Below, in pieces: positions 35,701 to 64,000 of a stretch of DNA of 64,000 nt. The notes beneath the pieces were generated by a model, which saw only the letters and a list, made by a program, of their open reading frames with translations, was not told the DNA's origin and searched no databases. The DNA is taken from assembly GCA_029582155.1 (NCBI GenBank), contig CM055906.1:14513291-14577290 (forward strand), in the 5' to 3' direction. How positions within the stretch are numbered: position 1 is the first letter of the stretch; the number at the start of each line of letters is the position of its first letter. The position numbers were made by a program, and so were the translations under genes. The stretch is from Panopea generosa (Eukaryota > Mollusca > Bivalvia > Adapedonta > Hiatellidae).

Positions 35701-38700
35701 GATTCGTGATGTAGTCACATCAATGAGTTTTCAAATACATCCCTAAAAGGCCCTATGCTATAAAAACTAGTATGCAATTCTTCAGAGGGGATTTAAATCT
35801 GTTAGGTCTGTGTGCAGAGAGTAATACCCATGTAGTGCACATAAAAAAAGATCTCTGGACTTTTATAATATATAAATCAGTGATTTTAATGACCGTACAC
35901 CTCCCTTTGAAAATAGGTTTTCTTCGATTCTCCATCAATGATTGCTTTAAGTATATAAAAGTATTTTTTGTCATCTCCGCAAGTACTGTATGCTTTCTTA
36001 CTTGAACCAGACAGGAGTGAGATATGAATGACAATGAAACACAATGTTGTTTCAATCATCAAGAAGAATGTGGCAAGGATGGGGATATAAAATCATGACC
36101 CCTTGGTTTATAGTCAGATATGCTACCTACTGAGATAACTACACCTGAATGTATTAAGGTCTTGTTTAAGCTTCCAATAATTGAAACCTCAGTTCCTATT
36201 GTATATCATAACCATTTGTTTTGACGTTTTCATAATTGCCGAGGCTGTAGAGAAGATATTCATTTTTCTGGCACAGCCAATGCTGAAAAGAAGATATATT
36301 CATTATTCTGGCACAGCCAATGCTGAAGAGAAGATATATTTATTATTCTGGCACGGCCGAGGCTTAAGTGAAGATATTCATTATTCTGGCACAGCCAAGG
36401 CTGAAGAGAAGCTATTCATTATTCTGCCATGGCGGAGGCTGAAGAGAAGATGTTCATTATTCTAGCACGGCCAAGGCTAAAGAAAAGATATTCATTATTC
36501 TGGCATTGCAGTGGCTGAAGAAAAGATATTCATTATTCTGGTGTGACCAAGGCTGAAGAGAAGATATTCATTATTCTGGCATGGCTGAAGAGAAGACATT
36601 CAGTATTCTGGCACAGCTGAGGCTGAAGAAAAGATATTCATTATTCTGCCATGGCGGAAGCTGAAGAGAAGATATTCATTATTCTGGTGTGGCCGAGGCT
36701 AAAGAGAAGACATTCATTATTCTGGCATGGCCGAGGCTGAAGAGAAGATATTCATTATTCTGGCAAAGCCAAGGCTGAAGAGAAGATATTCATTATTCTG
36801 CCATGGCCGAGGCTGAAGAGAAGATATTCATTAATCTGCCATGGCCGAGGCTGAAGAGAAGATATTCATTATTCTGCCATGGCCGAGGCTGAAGAGAAGA
36901 TATTCATTATTCTGGCAAAGCCAAGGCTGAAGAGAAGATATTCATTATTCTGGCACAGCCAAGACTAAAGAAAAGATATTCATTATTCTGGCATTGCAGT
37001 GGCTGAAGAAAAGATATTCATTATTCTGGTGTGACCAAGGCTGAAGAGAAGAAATTCATTATTCTGGCACAGCCAATGCTGAAAAGAAGATATATTCATT
37101 ATTCTGGCACAGCCAATGCTGAAGAGAAGATATATTGCCTGTTGCACAGTAAATGGGCCAATCTTTAAAAAAAACAGGTAAATGAATAAAAAAATATATA
37201 TATGTGTTAAATTCTAAATTAAACCATTATTTCTATAACATAACATAATTACCAAAATGTAGTTGTTTTTTTTTTCATGCAAAAATCCATGAATTTTTTT
37301 TTAAGAGCGCTTTTAATGGCTCAAAACAACTGTTTTAGGGCGTAATGTGTTAGCATCTAAAATTTACCCATTATTTAAATATACATAAAATTCATTTAAT
37401 TGCTCATTTACCCATTTTATTAGAATTTATCAATAGATATTTTAATTACTTTTATTTTGATGTATGGCTTTTCATAATTAACTAAGTCGTTTTTCTTATG
37501 TAGACTTTTGAACGATATCACTAGTTCGTAATGGAAAAAATTCAATTAAAACCTTTGTTCCCTTATTTATTCATAAATATATGAATATGTACTAAATGAA
37601 TGTTTATTTTCCTTCCTATGCTTTGCTATTGTATGTGATTCAAAAGCAGAGTTTTATTTTTACTGTTAAAATAGTGTATTTGTGAAAAAAATACCTAACA
37701 TCAGAAAATTTCAATTTGTGACAAAAAAACTGTAACGTCCGTCCCCCTGCCATATATTCTTCCAAAAAGATAAACAGAATAATACATTCACCTGCTGACA
37801 TACATATCCATGTACTATCCAAAAAAAAGTTAAATAAAACTTGGTCTGAGCATATTAAAGGAAAATATACACTAAAATGTAAAATTTACATGTAACGTCC
37901 GTCCCCGTAACGTCCGTCCCCCTATATTTACAAATAATAAATCTATGTTTTTATCATCTTTTCACATTTTTTTCACTTTATAAAAGTATTTTATGTTAGC
38001 AGTGTGCTGTTTAGACTTGAATAAAAATTAAAAAAATAATATATACATATATATTGACCATATTATAGACTTTTATAATAAATTCATAATGCAAGATCAA
38101 TGAATTGTGGTATTTAATAAAATTTTATAGCTACAATCTCATGGAAGAGTACTTTCTTAAATTTCTTATACACATGTTTGTTTAGGAAACAAAAATTAAG
38201 AGAATTTGCATTTAAATTGAATGTTTAAATTCACTTTAAAAAATATGGGACGGACGTTACAAAAAGGGGACGGACGTTATTTGATTTTTTAGTAGCAATG
38301 TACAATTGATACAAACCCTCTAATTTAACTGAAATGTTGAAATTAGCAATAGTCCATAAAATGATGTAATATTACATACATCCTGTCATTAACCTAGGGG
38401 TTATTAAACATGGGGTGATCTATGGAGGCACTGTGTGCAGTATGCAGACAGAGGGGGGCAGTATGTCTCAAGAGTATATTACCACATGGTGTGAATGTAG
38501 TCCTTGGGGAAATTAGGAGAGCACAGTAGGATGTCAGGTAAATTGACAGTAGCATATTCCTTGTACAATATAGATGTAGACATTATATTCCATTTGGCAC
38601 TTCTTAAAAATGTGAGAAATTCATATTTGTCCTGGGAACTAGAATGGGTAATGATGTTAAATGAGGGTAAAATGGCAGGTAGAATACACAGTATAATTAA

Positions 38701-41700
38701 CAAAGTGGCATGTCAAAAATACTGCTCAACTTGGCTTCATCTAAATTTACTTTAAAAGGGTATGAAATAAAAATCTTATCATTCGTTTCTTGTCGTGCAA
38801 TAATGGATGCAGAAGCTTAACGTGAGAAAGAAAGAGACAAAAAGCACCGCCAAAGAAAAATTGAAGCTTAATAAGGTAATTATATGATTATTTTATTTTA
38901 ATATCCCTTTATACATCACATGGTTTATAAATGGACCATTCTTTATTCCTGATTTATAGGGTGTTTTTTTTATAATTTATTGACCGAGTAGCAAACAGTG
39001 TAGACCCTGCTCAGACTGCATGGATGGCTGATCGGGTTCAACATCTACACATGTTGCTTAAAACATTTAAGTTGTTTTTACCTAGTTAGGGGTTATTTTA
39101 ATATGTTATAATCATGTTTGCTATTTCAGGGTTATTTTAATATTTAATAATCATGCTTGCTTTGTAATTACTGCACTTTATCTGCATACGCTTAGTACTG
39201 GTTCTACCCAGGAAGACTTTGAGCACGATTTGTCTAAGATGTAATAACTCTTTTTCACAATTGATGTAAAATAAGTTAAAAACATTATTTAAATAAGTAA
39301 ACTAAACTGTCTGTAAATACATACCATATATTGTGTGTATAGTTGAGATAGACAGACAGACAGACATACGTATTGAACTTAATAAAATATTGAAAAACAG
39401 TATCGGATCTATGCTGTTCAAATTATAGGTATTGTAAACACTAGTTCATTTTGTAATATTTTACTTTAACATAATTGCAGGAAAAGCATGCAGAAACTTA
39501 GAAAAAAGATGTAACTAGGAAGAAATCAGAGAGCCAAATATTGACGGACACTACTGAAAATCAACCTAGAAAGTTCAAATCTGTCTTTAACAGAGAAAAT
39601 TAAATCAGCAACAGCAGACCGTGTTCGTAAATTCAGTGAAGACAACACCGAAAAAATGAGACCATCATGCCTACAACCCCGAACCCCTAAAAACCAAAGA
39701 CATGAACAACATAGGGAAGACATGAAACTACTGCGCAGCCAGTAAAAGATTGATAAAGAGGCTAACAATTTTCGACTCCGTGTTCACCTGAATACCCCAA
39801 AGGACAGTAAGAAATCGGTTTCAAATTCCCCAATAGTTGACAGTGATAAAACATACAAGTATAAAAGTAGTAAGGCTAGAGCATTCAAACGTGTTAAAGA
39901 AACTTGGCTTGGAACTCCAGCTGAGAAGGCGCGTATCATTGAAAAGTTGTTGAAAATACGACAACACGGTCTCGCCAGATGTCAAGTCAGAGTCCCTCTG
40001 TACAGGCTGTGTTAAACCAAAAAGTGACTCGAAAAAAACTAAACACACAATTCTCTATCAATGAATCTCTGAAGCAGAAATTAGGAAACCGAAAAGAGAA
40101 ACAAAAATCCACAACAGGCATTGTTGCATCTAAATTACTTGGATTAATTATATATTAGTTTAAAAGTTTTAGAATTTAGTAGTGGTTTCCTTAAAATGTA
40201 GTTTTAATATCATCTCATTTAAATGTAACGTCCGTCCCCTTGTGCTATAGACAATTTTAAGTTCCTATAAAATTACTAAAACTTGGACAAAAAGGGTATT
40301 GGATGCTGAAAACAAGTCCCATTATTATCAAATATTGTGTAATAGTATGACCAAGTATAACCAATAATTCAAACGGAAAAATTTCAATGAATTTCAATGA
40401 ATGCATGACAAAATCATGAATTAACATATTTTAATTGAAATATATTATAAAAATAATATTTTGAAATTGTATTTTTTTTTTAAATTATAAGTAGCTACAT
40501 TTCTTTTACACATTACTTTTACTAAATAAGAATTGTATGAACTCAAACAATTGTATCTCTCTGAGAGTGATGTTCAAATTTAATGTAACGTCCGTCCCCT
40601 TATATTGTAACGTCCGTCCCCTGAGCCCTTATGTTGTACATATGCTATTTATTAAAATTGACATAAAAGAGACTGTAATAAATGTTCATAGTATGTTATA
40701 TTTGTGTTACTTCTTTATTTTAATATTAATTTTATACAGATTAAACAAGTAAAACCATCTTTTAAAGAAAAGATAAAAGTATGGTTATATTTGTTTTGCC
40801 CGTATAGAATCTACAAAATGTAAAAAAAAATACTTAAAAGTATATTTTTTTCAAATGTTGCTTATATGTTACTACAGATACACAAGATGAATACATGTAC
40901 CTATTTTAAAGACTTAGACATTAAAAACAAGCACACACATCAACATAACTTATGAAGCTGTAACGTCCGTCCCCTTGTCTACCTGCCTAGAGAAATATAT
41001 GATTTTTTTTAAAATTTAAGTTGAAACTTATCTCTTCTTCGGTTGTCTTACATACTTAAAACATAAATGTATTAGAAAAAAACAAAAACAAATGAATATC
41101 TTAAACTTTTTTTTTTTACTTAGATGCTAACATAATTGGCCCATTTACTGTGCAACAGGCAATATTTATTATTCTGGCACGGCCGAGGCTTAAGTGAAGA
41201 TATTCATTATTCTGGCACAGCCAAGGCTGAAGAGAAGCTATTCATTATTCTGCCATGGCGGAGGCTGAAGAGAAGATGTTCATTATTCTAGCACGGCCAA
41301 GGCTAAAGAAAAGATATTCATTATTCTGGCATTGCAGTGGCTGAAGAAAAGATATTCATTATTCTGGTGTGACCAAGGCTGAAGAGAAGATATTCATTAT
41401 TCTGGCATGGCTGAAGAGAAGACATTCAGTATTCTGGCACAGCTGAGGCTGAAGAAAAGATATTCATTATTCTGCCATGGCGGAAGCTGAAGAGAAGATA
41501 TTCATTATTCTGGTGTGGCCGAGGCTAAAGAGAAGACATTCATTATTCTGGCATGGCCGAGGCTGAAGAGAAGATATTCATTATTCTGGCAAAGCCAAGG
41601 CTGAAGAGAAGATATTCATTATTCTGCCATGGCCGAGGCTGAAGAGAAGATATTCATTAATCTGCCATGGCCGAGGCTGAAGAGAAGATATTCATTATTC

Positions 41701-42636
41701 TGCCATGGCCGAGGCTGAAGAGAAGATATTCATTATTCTGGCAAAGCCAAGGCTGAAGAGAAGATATTCATTATTCTGGCACAGCCAAGACTGAAGAGAA
41801 AATATTCATTATTCTGACACAGCCAAGACTGAAGAGAAAATATTCATTATTCTGCCATAGCTGAGGCTCAAGAGAAGATATTTCATTATTCTTAAATTCA
41901 TAATTCTGGCATGGTCGAGGCTGAAGAGAAGATATTCATTATTCTGGCATGGTCGAGGCTGAAGAGAAGATATTCATTACTCTGGCATGGTCGAGGCTGA
42001 AGACAAGATGTCCATTATTCTGTCATTTTAGGTTTGAACATGGAAATTTCAAGCTAGACATCAAGACTGAAGTGCTCCAGCTTCCGGTTTTAAGAGGGGC
42101 GGTGGTCTAATGGATAGTGTTGGCCGCACACGCCAGAGGTTGCGAATTCGACCCCAGCTCGACCTGATGCCTCTCATAAAACAACACTCAGTACTGGTTC
42201 TACCCAGGAAGCAGACTCGAGATCGATTCATGTAAGCTCTGAGCTTTCATCGCAATCGAGCTAAAAGAAAGAAGTATAAACTAAGTGCTCCGGCTTCCAA
42301 ATCCAATTTTGCAAATTTTTCAATATCTATTTTTTTTATTAAAAACTGTTGTTTTTTTCAATTTGCAATACTGCTTCATTTTACTAAAATATTTATTACA
42401 ACAATACAATAAATGTTGAATGAATGGTAATTATCCAATTTGACAGCAACAAATCGCGAAAATTAGTGACAACGAAAGTAAAGCCGGCACCTGACCTTCA
42501 CCTGATTCAATGTCTTTTTACCTGCTTGTGTTGGTTGTGGACTTCGAGGCTGTCTGAAATGTCCACTTGTATATAAAACATCATCACTTGCACTTGAATG
42601 GGGATAATTTTGAGGGAAATGATAATTTTCTCCCAT
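20305..42636 (-). CDS. SLC25A46: SLC25A46-like mitochondrial outer membrane protein, complete gene of nine coding exons
   Basis: The product is a divergent member of the mitochondrial carrier family that sits in the outer membrane and, in vertebrates, affects mitochondrial fission, cristae and lipid traffic. Coding exons join in phase (gene order): 42522-42636, 33679-33721, 32189-32246, 29760-29837, 29213-29313, 26941-26979, 23099-23156, 21286-21498, 20305-20730. The total is 376 residues, against 418 in human. Matches to the human protein from memory include HPFIVLRR, LHLTP, MWKGF, HLLLK, ATPFYVSSFVETVQ and YPFETVLHRL. Carrier-type repeats are partial: the PFETVLHR motif at residues 274-281 is kept, whereas the first (HPFIVLRR) lacks the acidic residue, as is usual in this family. 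P274, R281 and L282 correspond to human P333, R340 and L341, positions hit in neuropathy patients. The N-terminus is short and polar. All introns are GT-AG. It shares a 174-base upstream gap with SORD. Confidence 0.93.
21085..21240 (-). repeat. SINE-B copy in SLC25A46 intron 8
   Basis: Plus-strand markers are 'caacttaaacacatccagat', 'aaagtgtcgtggtcagaaac' and 'caccacaaatgtcaatggcg'. This is a worn minus-strand copy. Confidence 0.5.
21286..21498 (-). CDS. SLC25A46: SLC25A46 coding exon 8
   Basis: 213 bases, phase 0 on both sides, residues 165-235 (SHGANNAPTFLEFFFEGLNR...KKQEESN). It corresponds to the human 'GILECVKEGIGRVIG...' segment with its hydrophobic stretch ending in a basic KTKK run. 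Acceptor 'tttcag', donor 'gtaag'. Confidence 0.9.
21499..23098 (-). other. SLC25A46 intron 7
   Basis: 1.6 kb, AT-rich, containing the 30-bp array. Nothing else recognised. Confidence 0.6.
22596..22978. repeat. 30-bp minisatellite in SLC25A46 intron 7, about 13 copies
   Basis: The unit 'tccatacctatcaaaaccag' plus 'taattgcaag' is exactly 30 bases, and most copies differ only at one C/T. It is open in several frames on both strands because 30 is divisible by three; none is taken as a gene. Older units extend left to about 22500. Confidence 0.93.
23099..23156 (-). CDS. SLC25A46: SLC25A46 coding exon 7
   Basis: 58 bases, residues 146-164, SGYLVATPFYVSSFVETVQ, nearly identical in pattern to human 'LTYVVAMPFYSASLIETVQ'. 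Acceptor 'ttttttag', donor 'gtaagt'. Confidence 0.95.
23357..23598. mobile_element. MITE1 copy 2
   Basis: TTAA flanks, 'ccctttacttcatatagacg' at left and 'ggagtatgggttaa' at right. The central hairpin has arms 'gaaaacagtgcaggaagtg' and 'cttcctgcactgttttca'. The left end has an extra local duplication of 'gacgcctttggacacct'. Confidence 0.85.
23735..25165. repeat. 73-bp minisatellite in SLC25A46 intron 6 with higher-order repeat
   Basis: About 19 units of 'atttatcatgaatatgtatt', 'taatatgacttatccttta' and 'ccatggtttcagtggggt'. A block of about 457 bases is repeated: the rare variants 'ccatagtttcag', 'gtgatgtagtgc' and the doubled 'atatcatgaatatgtattta' occur in the same order starting near 23819 and near 24275. 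Confidence 0.9.
25670..26290 (+). repeat. Worn interspersed repeat in SLC25A46 intron 6
   Basis: Two blocks share 'cccagggatgtgggaacca'-like and 'gcaattcacat' sequence, and the end has 'gcgaacccaaaaggtccct' with 'acggacgcacgatagac'. This layout resembles other subrepeat elements here (14880, 16240). Family not assigned. Confidence 0.35.
26941..26979 (-). CDS. SLC25A46: SLC25A46 coding exon 6, 39-base microexon
   Basis: It encodes part of T132, then TVKKHCLHLLLK and part of A145, matching human 'KQIGEHLLLKS'. The acceptor must be the AG at 26980-26981. The stronger-looking 'atttcag' 19 bases upstream would bring a stop into frame. Length 39 keeps phase on both sides, so skipping it would be in frame. 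Confidence 0.85.
28440..28640 (+). repeat. SINE-C in SLC25A46 intron 5
   Basis: The head 'ggtactctaatggatagagt' and B-box-like 'gtgggtttgatcc' are followed by 'ctcagtactgattgtaccca' and 'gagctgttcatataagctct', with a tail ending 'aaatcagtataaact'. Confidence 0.75.
28945..29100 (-). repeat. SINE-F-like tRNA-derived fragment
   Basis: On the minus strand it reads 'gcgcagtcggtaacacatctg', a tRNA-like A-box region, followed by 'gtccaggggtggtgagtcta'. A similar piece is at 36035-36145. Confidence 0.5.
29213..29313 (-). CDS. SLC25A46: SLC25A46 coding exon 5
   Basis: 101 bases encoding residues 99-131 (PVISMWKGFISNLSARGLN...EATSWP) and two bases of T132. It aligns with human '[20 protein letters not shown]'. 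Acceptor 'atttcag', donor 'gtaagt'. Confidence 0.93.
29314..29759 (-). other. SLC25A46 intron 4, nothing recognised
   Basis: 446 bases, AT-rich, with no recognised repeat or gene. Confidence 0.6.
29760..29837 (-). CDS. SLC25A46: SLC25A46 coding exon 4
   Basis: 78 bases, phase 0 at both ends, residues 73-98 (IYHPANKLHLTPISLV...NKNK). It aligns with human 'NYHAQHYHLTPF...FNKTQ'. Confidence 0.93.
30080..30510. mobile_element. MITE3: large imperfect palindrome (foldback-type element)
   Basis: The left arm (about 30080-30290) and right arm (about 30300-30510) are reverse complements with many differences: 'tcaagcaatatttaagtgct' pairs with the region ending 'ctgcttgatg', and 'gataatgatatgctatttatcc' pairs with 'ggataaaaagcatctcattatc'. 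Single-arm relatives lie at about 43670-43880 and 48660-48810. No coding sequence. Confidence 0.7.
30845..30935 (+). repeat. SINE-B tail fragment
   Basis: 'caactcaatactggtttttatcc' resembles the SINE-B body and is followed by an A-rich tail. Diverged. Confidence 0.35.
30963..32100. repeat. 46-bp minisatellite in SLC25A46 intron 3, about 25 copies
   Basis: The unit is 'gatgttcaactccattccta' plus 'tttatccaataccctgttttgagaat', with period 46. Variants alternate between 'gagaatg' and 'aggaatg'. The array ends 88 bases from exon 3. Confidence 0.92.
32189..32246 (-). CDS. SLC25A46: SLC25A46 coding exon 3
   Basis: 58 bases. It completes S53 and encodes IWGFEIISHPFIVLRRSCQ (residues 54-72), the end of the first carrier-like helix and its modified signature. 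Acceptor tract 'tttttttttcag', donor 'gtgagt'. Confidence 0.93.
32247..33678 (-). other. SLC25A46 intron 2, nothing recognised
   Basis: AT-rich intron. No repeat family from this window was recognised inside it. Confidence 0.6.
33679..33721 (-). CDS. SLC25A46: SLC25A46 coding exon 2
   Basis: 43 bases. It completes the split codon D39 and encodes QVRKLAGVALGTG, matching the 'LNRFAGFGIGLAS' part of the human protein. Acceptor 'ttttag', donor 'gtgagt'. Confidence 0.88.
34085..34215 (+). repeat. SINE-G-like fragment
   Basis: The head-like 'gtagtggtggtctagttgtt' is followed by 'ttggacagcagatcagatat'. The latter is shared with the minus-strand copy at 52370-52530. Confidence 0.45.
34930..35590. 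repeat. 163-bp tandem repeat, four copies, in SLC25A46 intron 1
   Basis: Each unit begins 'ttgactaattaaagggccat' and contains 'gctggttat...acttggcctagat' and 'tgtgtaagtttgcttcagtt'. Starts are near 34953, 35114, 35277 and 35440. Confidence 0.85.
36035..36145 (-). repeat. SINE-F-like fragment
   Basis: On the minus strand it has 'tagttatctcagtaggtagc', a tRNA-like A-box region. It resembles the fragment at 28945-29100. Confidence 0.45.
36250..37134. repeat. 38-bp minisatellite, left part
   Basis: The unit is 'gaagagaagatattcattat' plus 'tctggcacagccaaggct', with period 38 and sequence variants. The stretch from 36271 recurs at 37067 (offset 796) and, after the transposon, continues at 41163, keeping rare variants in the same order. 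So copy 1 (about 36270-36970) and copy 2 (37067-37134 plus 41163 to about 41800) are a recent tandem duplication. Confidence 0.92.
37733..37921 (+). promoter_or_regulatory. Transposon 15-bp motif, copies 1-3
   Basis: 'taacgtccgtcccc' begins at 37733, 37893 and 37908; the last two lie head to tail without a gap. The preceding base is G in all three. Role unknown; a binding site for the element's own protein is a reasonable guess. Confidence 0.75.
38247..38279 (-). promoter_or_regulatory. Transposon 15-bp motif, copies 4-5, inverted
   Basis: 'gggacggacgttac' (38247-38260) and 'ggggacggacgttat' (38266-38280) form a pair on the opposite strand, 19 bases from start to start. Confidence 0.75.
39170..39295 (+). 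repeat. SINE-B fragment nested in the transposon
   Basis: 'cttagtactggttctaccca', 'ggaagactttgagcac' and a tail 'cacaattgatgtaaaataag' match the SINE-B body. It lies in the intron-like gap of the decayed gene, so it inserted into the transposon. Confidence 0.7.
39349..39368. repeat. (GACA)n microsatellite
   Basis: About five copies of 'gaca' in the transposon interior. Confidence 0.7.
40225..40974 (+). promoter_or_regulatory. Transposon 15-bp motif, copies 6-9
   Basis: Copies begin at 40225, 40585, 40608 and 40961, all on the plus strand and all followed by CCCCT or CCCCTT. The last lies about 190 bases from the right end. Confidence 0.75.
41163..42025. repeat. 38-bp minisatellite, right part
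   Basis: It continues copy 2 of the duplicated array directly after the transposon. It matches 36337-36970 with constant offset 4826, including the rare 'gcattgcagtggct' and 'ggtgtgaccaaggct' variants. It ends in more worn units by about 42020. Confidence 0.9.
42092..42285 (+). repeat. SINE-C copy
   Basis: The head 'ggtggtctaatggatagtgt' and 'gaggttgcgaattcgacccc' (B-box) are followed by 'ctcagtactggttctaccca', 'cgattcatgtaagctctgag' and the tail 'aaagaagtataaacta'. It is the best preserved member of this family here. Confidence 0.8.
42522..42636 (-). CDS. SLC25A46: SLC25A46 coding exon 1
   Basis: It starts at ATG 42636-42634 (MGENYHFPQNYP...), gives 38 codons plus one base, and has donor 'gtaaaa' just below 42522. 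The N-terminal segment is low in hydrophobic residues and poorly conserved, as in other family members. The start is chosen because it is the only ATG in this exon and the 5' flank leads straight into the intergenic region. Confidence 0.85.
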
Positions 42637-62975: not shown

Positions 62976-63578
62976 TCATTTTGCCTGAATGAGATTCGCT
63001 TTGAATGAATTCCAACCATACCCCTCGTACAATGTAGCAGTGTTGCCTCTTAGTTTTCCCGCCCATACCTCGTCGTTCTTTTCAAGTAGCTGTGTCGTTA
63101 CTTCCGTATTACACGTATGGTAAGCATTGTCTCCAACAAGGAATTAGCCAATTACTTTACCGTTTTGAAAAATTCCCGCCACCATCCATTTGTTTATATC
63201 CAAACAGACACTCACATAAAATGTGTATATTCCTGCAACTGGTGCTACAAACACTCCTCGCACGACATTGAACGCCCTTCCCACGTTGGTAATTGTGATG
63301 TCATACTTTATCTTCTCGCCCACTTTAATATCAATTGCTGACGACAACCTCACATTGACAGCTATCAAAGTCGTCGTTTTTTCAACCCCGGTCAACTTCT
63401 CCTCTAAAGTTTTCATTTTCATTTCCACTGTAAGCAATCTTTCCATCATTTTAGACTCGTACATGAACTTCGGGCAGTCTTCACTTGGAGGTTCGTGAGA
63501 TTTAACACAGCGAGCGACTATAATTAGCCCAAAAGCAAACAACATCGATAATCCAGTTGTCATGTCTGCTATTGTCAA
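62976..63578 (-). pseudogene. C1q-domain protein gene, single exon, with one in-frame stop
   Basis: A 200-codon frame runs from ATG 63578 (or a second ATG at 63563) to TGA 62978-62976, broken only by TAA at 63146-63144 (codon 145). It starts with a signal-peptide-like segment (LSMLFAFGLIIVA), then a short coiled coil (about residues 38-68, MERLLTVEMKMKTLEEK), then a C1q domain: RLSSAIDIKVGEKIKYD, TNVGRAF, GVFVAPVAGIYTFYV, and after the stop NTEVTTQLLEKNDEVW, LYEGYGWNSFKANL. Such secreted globular C1q proteins act as recognition molecules in bivalve immunity. The domain is otherwise complete, so the stop is recent, polymorphic or a sequencing error. AATAAA lies at 62946-62941 on this strand. 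Confidence 0.85.
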
Positions 63579-64000
63579 ACCGCGACTATAACTACACAGT
63601 CAAGCAATGGCAAACTGATGTTTGAAATACAACGTTTTCACATTGTAGGAAATATACGCTTTCATGTAAAATATGCTTTGCATTGTGTTCTTCTAATTAG
63701 CTAGTAGTGCTTATGACCGTAACGAAAGCAAAGCGGAAGTCTCCACAATTGTGAAGTCTCAGTTTTAAGTACGCCTCATTAAGTGGCAAGTGTAGTTGCC
63801 GTGTTTTTATTCTCTGGTTAGTTTATAAAAAGGGGTCAAATATGAACATATTGACATAATCTAGACAACAGCTTCGAAAGGTTATGCAGGTCTCCTAAGT
63901 CGGGGTTAATAACTAAGTATTTTAACAAACCAGAACGTAGCGACCGTATGGAGCGTTGCTTCTACTTTTGTAGCACTTCTTATAAAGGGATTATATTGGC
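63579..64000. other. Upstream of the C1q gene; no further gene seen
   Basis: It should hold the minus-strand promoter of the C1q gene, though no clear TATA box was found next to the ATG. A plus-strand 'tttataaaaagg' near 63821 is TATA-like but has no gene after it within the window. Confidence 0.4.

Follow-up and report, generated by a model that had tools for sequence, protein, structure and literature searches.

A 64,000-bp stretch of the genome of the bivalve Panopea generosa (GenBank assembly GCA_029582155.1, contig CM055906.1, positions 14,513,291 to 14,577,290 of the forward strand; hereafter the window) contained a 4,028-bp non-autonomous DNA transposon carrying nine sites of a GC-rich 15-bp motif. 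The transposon feature is real, and its two motif arrays are probably functional binding sites. We moderately favour the explanation that this is a cut-and-paste element with a DDD-type transposase of RNase H fold, and that its arrays would be bound by a protein required by the element; the best candidate is a portion of its own transposase, or possibly an alternative product. We infer binding of the motif by a protein, encoded by the element itself, with a role in end synapsis, in control of the transposase gene, or in both. Binding sites for the element's own protein had been put forward as the simplest idea in an earlier note on this DNA, and sites for a protein acting on the element are still the simplest one, as a prediction from sequence.

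Sites of the motif were located by a scan allowing up to two mismatches, seven on the + strand and two on the - strand. No other copy was present in the 64-kb window at this threshold, as the earlier note had claimed, and 100 shuffles of the window gave 0 matches. The + strand sites were all exact (7/7), while the - strand sites (38246-38260 and 38266-38280) held one mismatch each; these two mismatches were private to the window copy among nine aligned copies, and all nine sites were exact in the consensus of eight 4-kb copies. The 13-mer TAACGTCCGTCCC was common to 9/9 sites, and the motif core was CGTCCGTCC. Each site held two CpGs, and in the 4-kb consensus a T preceded 8/9 sites, making a site of 16 bp. 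The sites, in order, were:

37732..37746, + strand: motif site 1, exact
37892..37906, + strand: motif site 2, exact, head to tail with site 3, starts 15 bp apart
37907..37921, + strand: motif site 3, exact
38246..38260, - strand: motif site 4, one mismatch, exact in the 4-kb consensus
38266..38280, - strand: motif site 5, one mismatch, exact in the 4-kb consensus, 20 bp from site 4 on the same strand
40225..40239, + strand: motif site 6, exact, read in 71 copies genome-wide
40585..40599, + strand: motif site 7, exact
40607..40621, + strand: motif site 8, exact, 22 bp from site 7
40960..40974, + strand: motif site 9, exact, 188 bp from the right end

The number of sites and their 7 + 2 orientation were therefore as first described, but not the exactness of all nine. 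The head-to-tail pair was recovered, with some positions corrected by one base (to 37892/37907, 38246 and 40607), while the supposed inverted pair at 38247/38266 lay head to tail on the - strand, 20 bp apart, and was inverted only relative to the other seven sites. Two arrays flanked the gene within the 4,028-bp element: five sites to the left of the coding region, at 598-1146 bp from the left end, and four to its right, at 188-938 bp from the right end. Close pairs kept their spacings of 15, 20 and 22 bp in relatives (15 becoming 14 in locus L096). A constant period of about 355 bp from one group of sites to the next was rejected, as this spacing varied between copies and only the close-pair spacings recurred.

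The element was delimited by terminal inverted repeats (TIRs), a 2-bp target-site duplication (TSD) and an empty site, as well as by same-length copies elsewhere and a fuller copy, L009. Limits of 37135-41162, as given earlier, inverted ends of 28 bp and an AT-rich setting were all confirmed.

37135..41162, + strand: non-autonomous DNA transposon, 4,028 bp
37135..37162, + strand: left 28-bp TIR
41135..41162, - strand: right 28-bp TIR
37133..37134: TSD TA, left
41163..41164: TSD TA, right
36238..37134: left-hand array of the 38-bp satellite, outside the element
36314..36363: empty site in uninterrupted satellite, 50/50 identical to the two flanks joined with one TA removed

The termini read TTGCCTG..CAGGCAA. 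Flanking 2-bp repeats were found in 7/8 copies with both ends read (the window copy and L011-L016, with TA, AT, TA, GA, CA, GA and CA; count made without L010 and L017), and the eighth copy, L009, fits an AT duplication if its last base changed. Exact 19-bp ends occurred 133 times genome-wide (69 + 64), against 0 + 0 for the reversed control, and at least 27 facing pairs about 4.0-4.2 kb apart were counted by hand among 100 of the 133 matches listed. Single ends of the same orientation clustered at C3:49.0-50.5 Mb (at least 7) and C4:68.3-68.4 Mb (at least 3) among the matches listed, for which a local repeat or a segmental duplication may be responsible. Rows of the 38-bp satellite covered 36238-37133, 41162-41892 and 41896-42026, the element being inserted within them. 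The satellite (36238-42026) showed a higher-order structure: segments 36500-36799 and 41326-41625, on either side of the element, were 100% identical, and the array is therefore built on a longer unit and includes a second copy of the insertion site.

Genome-wide (1.474 Gb, 39 contigs), the exact motif was found 763 times (376 + 387), and the reversed pattern 1 + 1 times. Among the 763 places, 103 were read (100 listed and three more in L016), with the motif masked in the queries: 71 fell within element copies of at least 85% identity, 6 within old relatives and 26 within a second repeat, repeat B. Repeat B (L001, L002, L023-L028, L030-L035, L037-L047) had, by eye, CpG-rich ends of its own and carried a fossil of the motif element (BLAST segments at 67-76% identity); it appears to have captured and amplified another repeat. 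Searches allowing up to three mismatches placed a 47-bp stretch around site 6 at 71 places genome-wide, and a 36-bp stretch around the most intact site of repeat B at 146 + 140 places (about 286). About 70 element copies with up to nine sites each, together with the roughly 286 repeat B places, roughly accounted for the 763 motifs.

This distribution bears on the main rival explanation, in which the motif is the site of a host transcription factor or boundary protein, used as promoter/enhancer or insulator of the element's gene. A GC-rich, CpG-bearing motif resembles such a factor site, and the sites lie five 5' of the start and four 3' of the gene, not near the ends. Host sites elsewhere would be expected, however, whereas 0/103 places read held the motif outside the element, its old relatives or repeat B; the scattering outside such elements that the earlier note had set against its own idea was not seen in 103/103 places read of 763. 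As the total is also roughly explained by the element copies and repeat B, a host factor is considered unlikely.

The nine sites were sharply bounded. In the 4-kb consensus they were 15/15 identical, while their 25-bp flanks agreed at 0.33 and 0.29 versus 0.29 expected. Exactness of the motif among copies, by comparison, was rejected as proof of constraint: it reflects recent spread, because the motif of young copies decays like its flanks after insertion. Several comparisons weigh on this ground against a function of the sites. Among 71 copies of site 6, the motif held 16/1065 differences (1.5%) versus 23/2272 (1.0%) in the flanks, with 56/71 exact, and eight copies gave 10/1065 for the motif versus 194/16405 for noncoding sequence and 22/2968 for 30-bp flanks. 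Motif-found loci L019 and L048 (5-6% diverged) displayed no significant difference (p = 0.22 and 0.18). In loci found through the protein, L096 (5.4% diverged) gave 11/119 in the motif versus 17/483 in the flanks and L095 (17.6% diverged) gave 4/47 versus 22/152 (p = 0.21), together 15/166 versus 39/635, with no retention. L096 is diverged by only 5.4%, and its changes are therefore mostly post-insertion and say little on active lineages.

Evidence between subfamilies was mixed, as older copies found through the motif retained it. In L029, L036 and L022 together, 15/257 motif positions were mismatched versus 208/1007 in 40-bp flanks (p = 9e-10), a retention that persisted without one exact site per locus (p = 4e-7) and without all exact sites (p = 6e-4), and the repeat B fossil displayed 6/73 in the motif versus 304/1432 in the background. 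Pooling the five old loci (L029, L036, L022, L096 and L095) gave 30/423 versus 247/1642 (p = 4e-6). L029, L036 and L022, as well as 8/9 copies of the alignment, were found through exact motif matches, and the between-subfamily signal is therefore partly biased, its loci having been found by way of at least one exact motif. The data suggest that the sites may have been kept in active old lineages, a reading weakened by the two protein-found copies, and although the sampling was not clean, the pattern fits a sequence needed by active copies and lost by dead ones.

The sites might have no function and be a by-product of the ancestral element, with an apparent conservation arising from young, motif-found copies. 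The post-insertion decay (16/1065 versus 23/2272) and the protein-found copies without retention (15/166 versus 39/635) would both agree with this. It leaves unexplained, however, why nine identical, sharply bounded sites stand in unrelated flanks, and the retention at about 20% divergence survives removal of all exact sites (p = 6e-4), while decay in L096, at 5.4% divergence, is post-insertion and weak on active lineages. Absence of function is accordingly held to be clearly improbable. Recent spread or function had been offered as alternatives, and both apply: spread explains the agreement among copies, and function explains the nine identical sites in unrelated flanks, retention in some old subfamilies being less firm.

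At element CpGs outside the motif, changes were about six times as frequent as at other bases (7.1% versus 1.2%), which suggests germline methylation. In eight copies, CpGs of the motif were changed less often (5/299, 1.7%) than other element CpGs (39/552, 7.1%; p = 0.0005), and a wider comparison (71 and 49 rows) gave 5/284 (1.8%) versus 10/258 (3.9%; p = 0.19) once six rows sharing one haplotype were left out; including them, the comparison was 5/284 versus 22/294. Protection of motif CpGs, with p = 0.0005 in the first comparison and 0.19 in the second, was not upheld. With two CpGs per site and methylation of the element suggested, the motif could be a target of methylation or small-RNA silencing, the second idea of the earlier note. 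This was not supported and is hardly credible, since motif CpGs decayed no faster than other element CpGs in either comparison and the element has no gain from keeping a silencing target.

The fuller copy, a 6.1-kb element within locus L009 (C1:29745400-29753800), had a stop-free frame of 898 codons. It was the sole full-length stop-free protein match among the 57 matches listed, other copies giving shorter stop-free pieces; counts from this protein search of the genome are lower bounds, 51/788 candidates having been scored. About 2.1 kb of transposase core present in L009 was missing from the window element and from L010-L016, and in the window copy the deleted portion includes the RNase H-like core. 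By this alignment, the 4,028-bp window element is an internal-deletion derivative of the 6.1-kb element. Decay of its gene had been noted earlier, and stops and frameshifts were found; that description was incomplete, as the core of about 2.1 kb is also deleted relative to L009. What is left of the gene comprised:

38803..38875, + strand: putative first coding exon remnant with an in-frame stop, read by eye, with a counterpart in L009 and putative splice sites
38876..39480, + strand: putative intron GT..AG
39481..40143, + strand: N-terminal transposase remnant (tblastn), residues 1-228 of 897 read in L009, interrupted by frameshifts and stops

The ratio of nonsynonymous to synonymous polymorphism (pN/pS) was 0.41-0.46 between L009 and the 4-kb consensus and 0.76 pooled among the eight 4-kb copies, of which 5/8 had a stop; on these ratios, the coding lineage was constrained in the past, with near-neutral decay since. 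Several deletion copies stayed open across 186-203 codons. The protein match split into two frames within the first 73 residues in 6/7 copies L010-L016, and L013 broke at residue 166. A 150-codon open frame just 5' of the transposase start was kept in four 4-kb copies, L010 (2180-2629), L011, L013 and L014.

These remnants could suggest that the derivative keeps its arrays to titrate transposase or to accompany a truncated N-terminal repressor, for which KP of the P element is a precedent. It holds all nine sites together with residues 1-228, and open stretches of 186-203 codons occur in several copies. Against this stand the early splits of the match in 6/7 copies and at residue 166 in L013, the pooled pN/pS of 0.76 and the stops in 5/8 copies, and titration or repression was regarded as very improbable.

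A DDE/D cut-and-paste element, as favoured here, was indicated by TIRs together with a TSD, by a modelled core of RNase H fold and by three ordered acidic residues. D253, D336 and D377 were invariant in 6/6 aligned sequences (L090 and L091 being close to each other) and are the putative catalytic triad. The modelled L009 core resembled integrase-type RNase H folds; the 50 structure matches listed were integrases and Argonaute-type proteins, with no cellular transposase among them, which excludes nothing. The confidence of the model, built on six sequences, was moderate (mean predicted local distance difference test, pLDDT, 63; predicted template modelling score, pTM, 0.51), which tempers this assignment. 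The L009 protein matched no Pfam family at E ≤ 1, an absence that is no proof, and six transposase relatives gave only weak Pfam matches, the best being DUF6746 (E = 0.012) in 2/6. Searches of the transposase against NCBIfam (best E = 3) and PHROGs (best E = 1.4) gave no family match, and neither did a sequence search of PDB; Rfam gave 0 matches. In viral contigs, no transposase was found by protein search or by degenerate pattern, and the motif 14-mer matched once in each of 41 contigs, which was taken as chance. In bacterial and archaeal contigs, 26 pattern matches to transposase relatives were obtained, of which 0 were confirmed. Neither the motif nor six transposase peptide strings were found in the literature. 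The feature is of a known kind, and its motif and transposase are new to the literature and libraries searched.

Relatives of the transposase were present in the same genome. Two copies of a distant family, on C10 (L093, L100, L101) and C3 (L094, L102, L103), were 99.2-99.5% identical over about 6.2 kb and carried coding tandem repeats at the C-terminus, and were probably active recently. In L090 (148-2700; also L091), a transposase relative was followed in frame by what looked by eye, in L090, like an OTU-type cysteine protease domain (DGNCLPRCGS...).

In the favoured mechanism, an element-encoded protein would bind both arrays, cooperatively in the simplest reading, and would loop or bridge the element; the transposase core would then cut at the 28-bp ends and insert with a 2-bp stagger. 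The window copy, having lost this core, could be moved only in trans. Two points speak against the mechanism: at 188-1146 bp, the sites are more distant from the ends than CACTA or hAT repeats typically are, and the distant C10/C3 relatives held neither the motif nor another interspersed repeat within 7.6-7.8 kb, a span in which the element ends were not reached. A bolder and doubtful extension would be that a DDD family missed by Pfam, NCBIfam, PHROGs and PDB, with a 2-bp TSD of free sequence, includes one lineage that evolved long-range arrays of a 16-bp site for docking and regulation. With sister lineages lacking such arrays in the same genome, one could trace stepwise how a subterminal-repeat system was acquired.

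The element offers an animal case of a long, sharply bounded and exactly repeated site tied to a transposase family missed by the libraries searched. A single assembly holds about 70 copies, one copy with an intact frame, older subfamilies and relatives apparently without arrays, a setting in which co-evolution between the site and its binding domain could be tested. A further lesson is that exact repeats in a young element do not on their own prove selection, and that copies must be sampled without the motif. Elsewhere in the window, a 151-codon frame at 63144-63599 (- strand) resembled by eye a C1q domain protein; such proteins form an expanded family in bivalves.

The best-studied arrays of subterminal repeats are those of CACTA elements in plants and hAT elements in insects. 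In maize Spm/En, subterminal repeats are recognised by the element-encoded TNPA, and the window element resembles CACTA/EnSpm elements (Spm/En, soybean Tgmt*) in a short motif in both orientations and both subterminal regions, in internally deleted derivatives and in a short TSD (PMC2613891). It differs in that sites lie up to 1.1 kb from the end and are identical rather than variable, and from Tgmt* in a TSD of 2 bp instead of 3 bp (PMC2613891). Its ends read TTGCCTG and not CACTA, and for an EnSpm transposase domain the L009 protein gave no Pfam match at E ≤ 1, an absence that is no proof. The hAT elements Hermes and Tol2 similarly have subterminal repeats, bound by BED domains and contacted by the N-terminal domain of the transposase, but in Hermes each site is short (AAGT) and the sites are near the ends (PMC10368747). 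The TSD of hAT elements is usually 8 bp and sometimes 5-7 bp (PMC12730594), compared with 2 bp here, and no BED or hAT match was obtained in the Pfam search. Kolobok duplicates the 4-bp TTAA (PMC9587614), unlike the 2-bp TA, AT, GA and CA found here. Tc1/mariner (ITm) elements share the 2-bp duplication, and the window copy lies at TA, but TA flanked only 2/8 copies, the others having AT, GA or CA (L009 as AT, with one changed base), and there was no Pfam match. Taken together, the short TSD of free sequence, the ends and the lack of a Pfam match either exclude or give no support to membership of Tc1/mariner, hAT, Kolobok or canonical CACTA. The best superfamily lead, by description alone, is Academ, although its TSD of 3-4 bp would not fit the 2-bp TSD here. 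Compared by description only, Academ is a DDE/D superfamily abundant and amplified in bivalves, and its curated mean length of 5,565 bp suits the 6.1-kb L009 (PMC10294476).

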